From Lanius collurio (Eukaryota; Chordata; Aves; Passeriformes; Laniidae), in contig JACBWW010000008.1 of the NCBI GenBank assembly GCA_020086605.1, positions 13,178,975-13,242,974 on the forward strand: a stretch of 64,000 nt of DNA. The letters run 5' to 3'. How positions within the stretch are numbered: the stretch's first letter is position 1; each line of letters begins with the position of its first letter. Positions 61,303-63,670 of the stretch are shown here, piece after piece. The notes under the pieces were generated by a model. It worked only from the letters and a program-made list of their open reading frames with translations. It was not told the DNA's origin and did not search any database. Position numbers and translations under genes: made by a program.

Positions 61303-61308
61303 CTGAAG

Positions 61309-61604
61309 TGTTGTAACGGGGAATGGTTACAACATGCATAAGACAGTGATGAATGCTGGAAGGAAATATGAAGCGATATTTCTATAGATGTTGATGGATG
61401 TTTATTTCCCTCCAGCCCCATCATGGCTGAGGTCCTGTGGCCGACTGACCTCACCATCACAAGGCTACCCCCTTCTTGCCAAGCCCAGGGAGCCCCCAAC
61501 AAGCAATCAGAAGACAGGCACAGGCCACATGTGACATGGGGACAGGGACAGGAGCAGACTCCAGGGTCCCTGTCCCCAGGACCTCGGGGAAAGGTACCTC
61601 AACA
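61309..61604 (-). repeat. 3' LTR of the provirus
   Basis: 296 bp. On the minus strand it starts TGTTGAGGTACC (from 61604) and ends CCGTTACAACA (61309). The AATAAA signal is at 61406-61401. The 53 bp read on the plus strand from 61358 (GGAAGGAAATATGAAGCGAT onwards) are identical to the 5' LTR; the remainder differs by roughly 15 percent or more by eye. Confidence 0.88.
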
Positions 61605-61833
61605 ATTCACCCTTTCTTTTTAAATAAAATAAGTATTGGCTACAGCTGGATAAACATAACAAAAACAATCTCCAAAAAAGAGAAGCCACTATCTTGAGTC
61701 CCCCAAATGTCCAGACAGGTTTTCTCTGGAGCATCTTAGGTCTGGCAGAACCCTCTGAACATGCTTCATGGGGAAACTGAGGCAGGAAAGGGTTTCTTCT
61801 ATTTGTACCTGTTGGAACTTTTAACAATGACAA
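61507..61833 (-). CDS. Unrecognised 108-codon frame with a hydrophobic segment, runs into the 3' LTR
   Basis: The frame starts at the ATG at 61833, crosses the polypurine tract and ends inside the 3' LTR. A hydrophobic stretch at about residues 48-70 (IVASLFWRLFLLCLSSCSQY) would suit a membrane segment and is followed by LKRK. Its place just before the 3' LTR is where the end of an envelope gene normally lies, so it may be a remnant of an envelope C-terminus. No disulfide motif or other envelope signature is seen, and the frame may be chance. Sure only of the open frame and the hydrophobic patch. Confidence 0.25.
   Translation of the reverse strand: MSLLKVPTGTNRRNPFLPQFPHEACSEGSARPKMLQRKPVWTFGGLKIVASLFWRLFLLCLSSCSQYLFYLKRKGELLRYLSPRSWGQGPWSLLLSLSPCHMWPVPVF
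61605..61621 (-). promoter_or_regulatory. Polypurine tract (plus-strand primer site)
   Basis: Minus-strand AAAAAGAAAGGGTGAAT abuts the TG of the 3' LTR, exactly where a retroviral polypurine tract belongs. This fixes the provirus orientation. Confidence 0.75.
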
Positions 61834-61960
61834 TTAATTTCTTCCCTCCCTCCTATTTATCCCCCCTTCGGTATCGGAGAGGAATTGTGGAGCAAGGGAG
61901 TTACATAGGGAAGCCATAGCGTGAAAAATGGATTAGGGATGAACTGGGGATGGGATGAAT

Positions 61961-62326
61961 TTAGGAAAGGCTCATTTGGGGTATAGGATAAAAGGGAAAA
62001 TTAGGAGTGGGAAAGGGAGGTAGCAGATATGGATATGGTTTATAATTTTGCACATAATAACTGTCTTTGACTGGAACACCCTTAGGCCCTGTCACATGTG
62101 CTGCCTGCAGGCCTTTTCTTCCTTGCACGATGTCAAATTCTACAATTTCTCTGTCTCCCAAGCTTGGAATATATTTCTTGGGATTATTTTTTTATTATGG
62201 CAGTTTGATGCACAAAAACATCTTCTCTAGTGTCCCATCTAGTTATAAACCCATAATGGTTCGTTACGTTATACCATTTTACAGTTCCTAAACTTTAGTT
62301 GCGATAACTTTTTCTTTTTTTCGCAT
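61961..62326 (-). pseudogene. Captured Y-box cold-shock domain, broken by two frameshifts
   Basis: Three consecutive minus-strand segments give a nearly complete vertebrate Y-box cold-shock domain. Segment one (ATG at 62326) ends in EKVIATKV. Segment two contains GTVKWYNVTNHYGFI and EDVFVHQTAI. Segment three (about 62164-62045) contains GDREIVEFDIVQGRKG and HVTGPKGVPV. In this family the domain binds single-stranded RNA or DNA and Y-box promoters. The RNP1-like motif keeps its Trp and Phe, and RNP2 (VFVH) keeps its Phe and His, the known base-contact positions of YB-1; a family-typical Gly is His here. One base is missing near 62290 and one near 62175, each giving a stop. After the domain comes a Pro/Tyr/Phe-rich tail (YPYLLPPFPTPNFPFYPIP) to a stop at 61961, unlike the basic/aromatic tail of YBX1. 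The closest paralogue (YBX1, 2 or 3) is undecided. Confidence 0.85.
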
Positions 62327-62372
62327 CGTTGCTGTTCACTGTCTGTGTTCTTGCTTTCCCTTTCGGCTTTGC

Positions 62373-63257
62373 TCACTCTTGCACTGGAGCTGCCGCAGCC
62401 GGTAATGCTGCCGCCGCTTCTGGGTACCGCTTCGCCAATTTAACATCTCGGTCGGTCCCCCACGTGGCTGCCGCTCTGTGTTTTCTGGGCGGCGCCGCTC
62501 CAGCCTGTTTCTGGGCTCTGCGTTCTCTTGTGTTGTCCCTGCCGCCGGCTCTGTGTCTTGTATAAGATTCTGACTGGGCTCGGTGTGGCCCCGCGCTGCA
62601 CCGTCCCGTTAACGGGGCTGCTCCGGCGGGCTTGGGCCGCTTCCCCTCGCAGGTGCCGCCACACCGCTCCCGTGTCTCAGGGCGAACACTGCCGGGCCCG
62701 CACCGCTGCGCTACTTCTGGCTCCGCTCCCACCGAGCCCGCGCCTGCCTCGTTCTCCCCACGCCTGCCCCGTTCTCCCCACGCCTGCCCCGTTCCTGCCG
62801 CCCTGCCTCGCGGTAGCCCTCCATGTGCGGGAGCTCCCTCGCCGCTGCCCGCCGTGCACTGGGCACCCGTGACCTCCTCCGGGGCCACGGAGGAGCCCGC
62901 TGCAAAGCGAGCGCTGCTCGACCACGTGTTTGCCGCTAGAACAGGAGTGGGACACAGCCGACACTGCTCGACAGACTCTGTAATTACGTAATATTCACGG
63001 AAATATTCTGCCATCGGCATATGTTTTGATTCAGAAATTAACTGTGTCCAAACATTCTCCCCAAAGTCTTTGGTAAGAATCAAATCCCAAGAAACGTAGA
63101 AGAAGTTTTTAAACAACCATGCCAGGCAGCATCCTAGTTCTTTCTGAGCTTGAATTAAACTAAAATCTACATATTGCTGTTCAAGAAACTTTTTAAGTTT
63201 AAAGTAAATGTCTCTTTGTGGTTCGGACACCCATGAGTCTTTCCATGAGTCCTCCAT
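62373..63257 (-). CDS. Gag matrix-like frame with long Ala/Gly/Arg-rich extension (294 codons)
   Basis: The ATG at 63257 lies 105 nt inside the 5' LTR, the normal place for gag. Residues about 12-95 (including DIYFKLKKFLEQQYVDFSL, then ELGCCLAWLFKNFF and ENVWTQLISES) show the helical pattern of a class II retroviral matrix domain with its conserved tryptophan. There is no myristoylation glycine at position 2. Residues about 96-294 are Ala, Gly, Arg and Pro rich, encoded by a very GC-rich segment with a 20-bp tandem repeat (about 62741-62795), and end in EAAAALPAAAAPVQE. No capsid major homology region or zinc knuckle is visible. The stop at 62373 lies 47 nt before the cold-shock ATG, and the middle cold-shock segment is in this same frame. 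An earlier gag/cold-shock fusion is possible but unproven. Confidence 0.55.
   Translation of the reverse strand: MEDSWKDSWVSEPQRDIYFKLKKFLEQQYVDFSLIQAQKELGCCLAWLFKNFFYVSWDLILTKDFGENVWTQLISESKHMPMAEYFREYYVITESVEQCRLCPTPVLAANTWSSSARFAAGSSVAPEEVTGAQCTAGSGEGAPAHGGLPRGRAAGTGQAWGERGRRGENEAGAGSVGAEPEVAQRCGPGSVRPETRERCGGTCEGKRPKPAGAAPLTGRCSAGPHRAQSESYTRHRAGGRDNTRERRAQKQAGAAPPRKHRAAATWGTDRDVKLAKRYPEAAAALPAAAAPVQE
62741..62795. repeat. 20-bp tandem repeat in the gag-like frame
   Basis: Repeats of CGCCTGCCCCGTTCTCCCCA, about two and a half units, lie in the GC-rich middle of the provirus. They encode a repeated Gly/Arg/Glu pattern on the minus strand. Confidence 0.9.
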
Positions 63258-63362
63258 CAGAGATGGGACAGCAAAATGAATGCAAGAAGAGATATCCAGA
63301 GTTTACTCACAAATCACCGAATCACTTTCTCCAGGGATCATTTGCATGCATTCTCCAACTTT

Positions 63363-63664
63363 TGTCACAATGGGGATAACTTGCAAGAAGAGTTTTTCGG
63401 CAAGACGAGTAGGAAGGAAATATGAAGCGATATTTCTATAGATGTTGATGGATGTTTATTTCCCACCAGCCCCATCATGGCCAAGGCCCCATGGCCGACT
63501 GACCTCACCATCATGAGACTCCCCCCTTCTTCCCGAGCCCAGAGAGTGCCCAACAACTGATCAGAAGGCAGACAGGCCACACTGACATGGGGACAGGGAC
63601 AGGGACAGACCTGTACACTCCAGGGTCCCACCCCCCAGGACCTTGGGGGAGAGGTACCTCAACA
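63363..63664 (-). repeat. 5' LTR of the provirus
   Basis: 302 bp. On the minus strand it starts TGTTGAGGTACC (63664) and appears to end CCCCATTGTGACA (63363). The AATAAA signal is at 63460-63455. The terminal part (63363-63408) is poorly matched to the 3' LTR, so this end is less certain than the others. A primer-binding site should follow directly. The nearest TGG-starting candidate (TGGAGAATGCATGCAAAT, from about 63357) does not match a tRNA 3' end I recognise. Confidence 0.75.
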
Positions 63665-63670
63665 CTGAGG

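Follow-up and report, generated by a model that had tools for sequence, protein, structure and literature searches.

Host-gene capture by retroviruses is known mostly from short-lived oncogenic strains. In oncogenic avian retroviruses an intron-less host coding sequence is fused to a 5′ frame and pol and env are lost, and reduced elements such as chicken ART-CH and mouse ETn and VL30 are short, lack pol, retain long terminal repeats (LTRs) and a purine tract and are presumably moved by helpers; to our knowledge, none of the latter three carries a captured host RNA-binding domain. Features of both are shared by the element described here, which is located on the minus strand at positions 61309-63664 of a 64,000-nucleotide stretch of the Lanius collurio genome (contig JACBWW010000008.1; this whole stretch is called the window). 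Its open reading frame (ORF), broken in the window, is ordered as a conserved head, a variable linker, a Y-box cold-shock domain (CSD) and a Pro/Phe-rich tail. Unlike the oncogenic viruses, it belongs to a germline multi-copy family with an RNA-binding passenger under long selection.

In the hooded crow, the ERVK insertion corCorLTRK1b (2.25 kb, LTR of 296 bp) is located 20 kb upstream of NDP and is associated with lower NDP expression and with plumage (Weissensteiner et al. 2020, PMC7341801). The accessible part of that article mentions neither an ORF nor a captured domain, the term 'open reading frame' occurring in it 0 times. The window element is in all likelihood a decayed copy of a multi-copy, non-autonomous LTR family with a fused CSD, known here from the genome of L. 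collurio and from crow, and ERVK-like (class II) as far as two hints go, namely the 6-bp target repeats and the ERVK label given to corCorLTRK1b in the accessible text. The CSD was captured and multiplied with the element and is no chance retrocopy.

Anatomy of the element and its copies

The features of the window element are given below, where P0012 denotes a crow protein relative and L024 another copy in the same assembly.

61303-61308: target-site repeat on the 3′ side, CTGAAG on the plus strand, one base off 63665-63670
61309-61604, minus strand: 3′ LTR, TGTTG...CAACA, 296 bp
61605-61621, minus strand: polypurine tract AAAAAGAAAGGG, adjoining the 3′ LTR directly upstream
61622-61856, minus strand: 3′ untranslated region, a conserved part of the family; the reading of crow P0012 extends into it (PTGTNGRNPLLPQFPHKACSE)
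61857-62039, minus strand: Pro/Phe-rich ORF tail and stop (ORF end 61857), aligned to crow proteins
61907-61923, minus strand: site inside the tail, homologous to the published NDP-insertion primer P_L_R_2
62040-62313, minus strand: Y-box CSD, split between two frames; 62191 and below are its second half
62314-62951, minus strand: GC-rich variable linker, Ala/Gly/Arg-rich; the P0012 linker is homologous in frame
62952-63257, minus strand: head, a conserved domain of 102 aa, open, placed as a Gag matrix would be
63258-63369, minus strand: leader from the 5′ LTR to the ORF, with a degraded primer-binding site
63370-63664, minus strand: 5′ LTR with a U5 of the second type, end approximate; 95% identical to an LTR of L024
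63665-63670: target-site repeat on the 5′ side, CTGAGG on the plus strand

A first-pass annotation, made from the letters of the window alone, had described a minus-strand element with two LTRs, 6-bp flanking repeats differing at one base, a polypurine tract and no pol, and all of this was borne out. The target repeats flanking 61309-63664 agree at 5/6 bases, the purine tract lies just upstream of the 3′ LTR, and the 2,356 bp of the element are taken up by the LTRs and, between them, the leader, the open head, the GC-rich linker, the two-frame CSD, the tail, the 3′ untranslated region and the purine tract, which leaves no room for pol. The LTR pair is 88% identical over 163 nt and 85% over 256 nt, with a Kimura two-parameter distance of 0.122 over 244 nt, and the 3′ ends (U5) of the two LTRs differ in kind after CCTTCC.

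The Y-box-type CSD of that annotation was likewise recovered. YB-1/YBX2 chains were retrieved with its second half, the best at E 5.8e-15, and the Pfam CSD model matches the window at 6.4e-4 and 20 bits (cut-off 27). Crow relatives, compared by tblastn, align to the window successively along head, linker, CSD and tail, with changes of frame on the way; P0003 aligns in this manner through its tail and stop, and P0012 through its linker and 3′ region. By sequence, fold match and tree the CSD is nearest to Y-box proteins, and it is genuine, not a chance resemblance. Neither a poly(A) nor a second target duplication was found around it in the window, in agreement with the first reading. That reading had also placed the CSD between a gag matrix-like frame and the 3′ LTR; the sense orientation and the position before the 3′ LTR hold, but head and CSD form a single fused ORF, and the CSD does not follow a gag. 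For the head itself, no match above the cut-off was obtained in Pfam, no relevant match in PDB and no match in a fold search, in which the query model was helical but poor (pLDDT 50.6). The head as a Gag matrix was therefore left without support by sequence or fold, the fold model being poor; the head sits in the place of a Gag matrix by position only, and no search supports that identity.

An LTR search of the 1.10-Gb assembly yielded 1,672 first-look candidates, of which 40 were scored, with 41 matches; all copy counts given here are lower bounds, biased toward LTRs resembling those of the window. Among the 40 scored, LTRs 84-91% identical to the 3′ LTR were found at 39 other full-length places. 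Besides the window, 38 loci were fetched, 35 with 3 kb on each side and 3 with at least 1.5 kb. Bare solo LTRs account for 19 of the 38, and 7 combine one LTR with some internal sequence (L003, L019, L021, L025, L027, L028 and L046); the internal piece of L025 is part of another, diverged LTR close by, and in L028 a full LTR is accompanied by a fragment of the head and by 91 nt that remain of a second LTR. In the remaining 12, two LTRs point the same way, the first LTR of L044 being partial. In 11 of these 12 (11/13 if L028 is counted) the CSD lies between the LTRs, namely in the C28 copy L010/L009, L012, L022, L024, L032, L035, L037, L039, L043, L044 and L047, that of L047 being badly decayed (32% identity, three stops). 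The other locus, L041, has a head only, without CSD, and its second LTR is just 71% alike. The CSD is held by 13 loci and the window, and in all 13 the 3′ region is 78-90% alike as far as the LTR; the 3′ untranslated region is 77-90% identical in copies keeping at least 240 nt of it.

Exact 6-bp target repeats flank L012, L022, L037 and L043, out of six loci with both outer ends complete; the target repeats of five other two-LTR loci, of the 11 aligned, were left out since their ends are trimmed. The purine tract AAAAAGAAAGGG precedes the 3′ LTR in 7/11 two-LTR loci and is altered in 4/11. In 4/11 loci (L022, L032, L039 and L041) the 5′ LTR is followed by TGGTGGAGATGCTGGGGA, which we take to be the likely primer-binding site, one base from the 3′ end of tRNA-Ala. 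Transfer RNA-Ala is an unusual retroviral primer, and no gene for it turned up when 36 loci were scanned for tRNAs. Copy lengths by trimmed ends range from 2,160 to 2,919 bp, with 1,034 for L041. A differing internal region was not seen in the 12 two-LTR loci, where no pol search was made and the unaligned stretches in L024 and L035 were left unexamined. With the CSD between the LTRs in 11/12 loci and exact repeats at four, the unit was therefore inserted repeatedly with the CSD inside. Several copies with one LTR-head-CSD order, named in the first-pass annotation as the sign of multiplication as a unit, are thus present in the genome of L. collurio.

Elsewhere in the window a second related LTR is located at 57360-57652 on the plus strand, opposite to the element, with 75% identity to the 3′ LTR over 257 nt; no internal family sequence adjoins it in the window, and it looks like a solo LTR. 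The translation of a GC-rich stretch at 42000-42450 resembles the linker, probably due to composition only.

Constraint, origin and exchange of the captured domain

Pairwise dN/dS (w) of the CSD was calculated for 14 copies of L. collurio with 87 usable pairs. The median was 0.40, 85/87 pairs were below 1 and 54 had z>1.96, against 0.81 and 1.02 in the wrong-frame controls, where z>1.96 was reached in 4/84 and 3/82 pairs. Because the pairs are non-independent and some dS values are saturated, four disjoint within-type pairs were pooled, and these gave 36.5 synonymous changes at 185.8 sites against 75.5 nonsynonymous changes at 702.2 sites (w 0.51, z 2.83); type A CSDs gave a pooled w of 0.34. 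The CSD has evolved under constraint as a protein. For the head, five disjoint pairs gave w 0.41 with z 4.22, and it is under constraint as a protein as well, a weaker result than that for the CSD. These w values should understate the constraint in the active lineage because every copy decays freely after insertion. Four aromatic or His residues, which we take to be RNA-contact residues from YB-1 structures, are kept in 9/14 own-genome copies and in 6/6 crow rows shown, as judged by eye.

A phylogeny with the YBX genes, as proposed in the first-pass annotation, was calculated from 21 CSD rows without YBX3 and without bird YBX genes, five half-length or frame-broken rows, the window's included, being left out. 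Fifteen retroelement CSDs fall on one side of a branch adjoining human YBX2 (88/85), with zebrafish YB-1 outside; the support of the branch, 93/96, is just below the program's threshold and not decisive, so that the phylogeny delivered the place beside YBX2 without settling it. YBX2 is also the best PDB relative of the crow protein P0003 (147.7 bits, versus 142.5 for YB-1), the CSDs of YBX2 (7f3i) and YB-1 (6a6j) sharing 59/82 and 55/81 identities with it together with a fold match. In addition, L003 and L037 keep GVPVKGSRYAPN, the YBX2 stretch where YB-1 reads GVPVQGSKYA, and L024 does nearly so. All five crow CSDs compared depart from the YBX2/YB-1 CSD at the same seven positions, and at four of these (Y7, T17, L61 and Q62) the window is like the crow sequences. 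From these resemblances the donor looks like a YBX2-like Y-box gene, and one capture from such a gene is likely, if not proven. YBX2 is a germ-line gene. That the CSD has no introns is in keeping with capture as RNA, and the tail of the element ORF presumably differs from the YBX C-terminal domain. The capture far predates the window copy, which is a broken family member.

Comparison of the copies argues for modular recombination within the family. L024, which lies on the same contig (C8) as the window at a distance of about 0.7 Mb, shares 96.6% identity with it along a stretch of 932 nt reaching from the 5′ LTR into the linker, beyond which the identity is 73%. Head type 2 (L010, L012 and L022) is strongly diverged, with 51-54% identity to the window head at the nucleotide level, and L009/L010 and L022 share a 91% identical CSD with the window despite this head; two head types thus occur with one CSD type and with LTRs alike. 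Such mosaics could arise by gene conversion or by template switching in co-packaged RNA. The divergence of the window LTRs corresponds to 3.9 million years at 0.0158 per site and million years (the rate of PMC7341801), and to several times more at slower rates, but this age is untrustworthy because the 5′ part of the window is nearly identical to L024 and because U5 differs between the LTRs. Two kinds of U5 were observed: the 5′ and 3′ LTRs of the window are unlike in U5, and those of L037 are unlike in the same way; in L035 the two kinds have changed places, and both LTRs of L024 carry the variant U5. That L037 combines unlike U5s with target repeats that still match is not expected from ordinary reverse transcription.

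Crow relatives and the NDP insertion

The crow evidence for the family is at the protein level only. A head-only search covering 5.8 billion proteins returned 3 clusters among 5 candidates, all named after the New Caledonian crow and 3/3 with PF00313 in a Pfam re-scan, and the window head is 73-75% identical to crow proteins. In a profile search 21 matches were obtained from 7,994 scored candidates. Eleven of the 21 are crow-named clusters with 37 members, all with a CSD, the cluster names being those of the representative's species and the species of other members not being displayed; the other 10 are CSD proteins of other or unnamed sources. Head and CSD stand in one ORF in 3 crow proteins, and the remaining ones begin later or are without a head, which may reflect gene-prediction artefacts or truncation. 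P0003 and P0002 are 90% alike in the head and 65% in the CSD. A scan of IMG/VR with the family profile gave a single CSD at 39%, and a scan of prokaryote contigs for the family gave none.

As given in the accessible part of its description, corCorLTRK1b has the same LTR length as the 3′ LTR of the window (296 bp each), and its 2.25 kb compare with 2,356 bp. Its published inner primer P_L_R_2 translates to HPWFPS, which is part of the ORF tail and was found in 6/12 family sequences (the 11 crow clusters and one ENA fragment); shuffled 20-mers reached six residues in 106/200,000 cases, and the remaining five primers available from that source, one inner and four in the flanks, reach just 3-4 residues. 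At the DNA level P_L_R_2 has 3 mismatches at the tail site of L032, L035 and L043 (0/40 shuffles as good) and 4 in L003 and L027 (4/40 shuffles as good). Its best place in the window is at the homologous codons, a match that is weak alone (32/2000 shuffles), and the NDP primers against the window DNA alone were not significant (42/200 and 192/200 shuffles as good). From the anatomy of the window the end of P_L_R_2 is predicted to lie about 630 bp into the element, in keeping with the 659-bp product reported in the accessible text, and by arithmetic an element with an ORF of P0002 length is expected at about 2.28 kb. Judging from these agreements, corCorLTRK1b very probably belongs to the Y-box element family. 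The presence of a CSD inside the NDP copy would follow from the insertion length.

Proposed mechanism, rival explanations and meaning

The CSD would have been captured, most likely once, from a Y-box gene of the YBX2-like, germ-cell kind by way of its spliced mRNA, and would then have moved, diverged and recombined along with the element. Because there is no room for capsid, protease, reverse transcriptase and integrase, the element must be moved in trans, a helper retrovirus presumably supplying Gag, Pol and integrase. A protein that binds the element's RNA is suggested because a selected Y-box CSD sits in the sole ORF. The fusion protein may act in germ cells, where through its CSD it would coat the element's own RNA, much as mRNA is packaged and stabilised by the Y-box proteins of the cell; the head might bring the ribonucleoprotein to the assembling particles of the helper, so that the short RNA would be preserved and packaged. 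In the accessible part of PMC6040738, YB-1 is reported to stabilise RNA of human immunodeficiency virus (HIV), to support production of murine leukaemia virus (MLV) and mouse mammary tumour virus in an RNA-dependent manner, and to associate with the integrases of HIV, Rous sarcoma virus (RSV) and MLV, co-precipitating with those of RSV and MLV. A captive Y-box protein could accordingly help at RNA stability, at packaging or at a later step. Taken as a whole, the best explanation, an element family with a captured CSD and an RNA-coat function via a helper, is considered likely; the coating mechanism of the fusion protein, considered by itself, is a tentative proposal that falls a little short of an even call.

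A processed Y-box pseudogene that landed by chance in an unrelated provirus would also be intron-less, and the window copy is broken, but such an event is extremely improbable: the order head-linker-CSD-tail-3′ untranslated region is repeated at 11/12 two-LTR loci and in crow ORFs, the window has no poly(A) or extra target repeat, and the CSD is under selection. Spread of such a pseudogene by one segmental duplication is excluded for four copies by their differing target repeats. Because 13/13 CSD loci share the 3′ region and no poly(A) or target duplication is present, a retrocopy in one provirus fails to account for the family. A chance retrocopy was thus rejected both by the copies and by selection, and the preference of the first-pass annotation for transduction is upheld by the CSD-bearing two-LTR loci and the 11 crow-named clusters that carry a CSD.

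The other explanations accept the family and differ on what the CSD does. The fusion could mainly be a transcription or translation factor acting on the LTR, not an RNA coat, in line with the accessible text of PMC6040738, according to which YB-1 binds the promoters of RSV, human T-cell leukaemia virus 1 and HIV-1 and its overexpression raises transcription; a captive protein in a 2.3-kb element would, however, gain more from packaging, and this role is judged unlikely. That the CSD is carried unused, with LTR ends, packaging signal and length alone mattering, is improbable: many copies are broken and half of the fetched loci are bare solo LTRs, but w is well below 1 where the CSD frame-shift controls are near 1, also in disjoint pairs, and the residues taken from YB-1 structures as RNA contacts are kept in most own-genome copies and in every crow row shown. 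Marginally less probable still is host use, in which some copies were taken over as bird germ-cell genes and selection reflects host benefit. The long ORFs in the crow annotation and the germ-line nature of YBX2 would agree with it, but the copies over which selection is seen are many and separate and differ in how head and CSD are combined, a pattern more in keeping with the fitness of the element.

Several observations weigh against an element family with a selected, captured CSD that includes the NDP insertion. L039 and L041, whose outer ends are complete, agree at only 4/6 target-repeat bases, and unaligned stretches of about 0.5-1.4 kb lie inside L019, L024 and L035. No helper was found, a search for pol not having been made. 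The constraint on type B CSDs is weaker (pooled w 0.58, one pair 0.89), and the signal of the head is less clean than that of the CSD because one wrong-frame head control is low as well (0.63, with 23/77 pairs at z>1.96; the other control 1.26). In the tree, besides the support falling just short of the threshold, P0003 branches first, and the contrast between its head and CSD in likeness to P0002 is one that we read as recombination. For the second inner primer, P_R_F_1, no site with 4 mismatches or fewer exists in 259,053 bases, and its best place, in the leader of the window, is not significant (184/2000 shuffles).

No report of a CSD in a retroelement was among the papers listed by a search of the literature, subscription papers lying outside its coverage. 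As a more far-reaching and rather doubtful possibility, a songbird lineage of elements may have swapped the usual nucleic-acid binding of Gag for a captured Y-box domain of germ-cell origin, so that a minimal 2.3-kb element whose one ORF is the fusion makes its own messenger ribonucleoprotein coat, parasitises helper particles, was recently active in crows and was the source of the NDP insertion. If the NDP insertion is a member of the family, the mutation cited as an example of transposon-driven plumage divergence carries a Y-box protein gene, and it would then be asked whether that gene is expressed in skin or germ cells and whether the protein or the LTR alone affects NDP. For the family itself, a captured RNA-binding domain has been kept under selection and multiplied in the germline, and its use to the element can therefore be studied from many copies.

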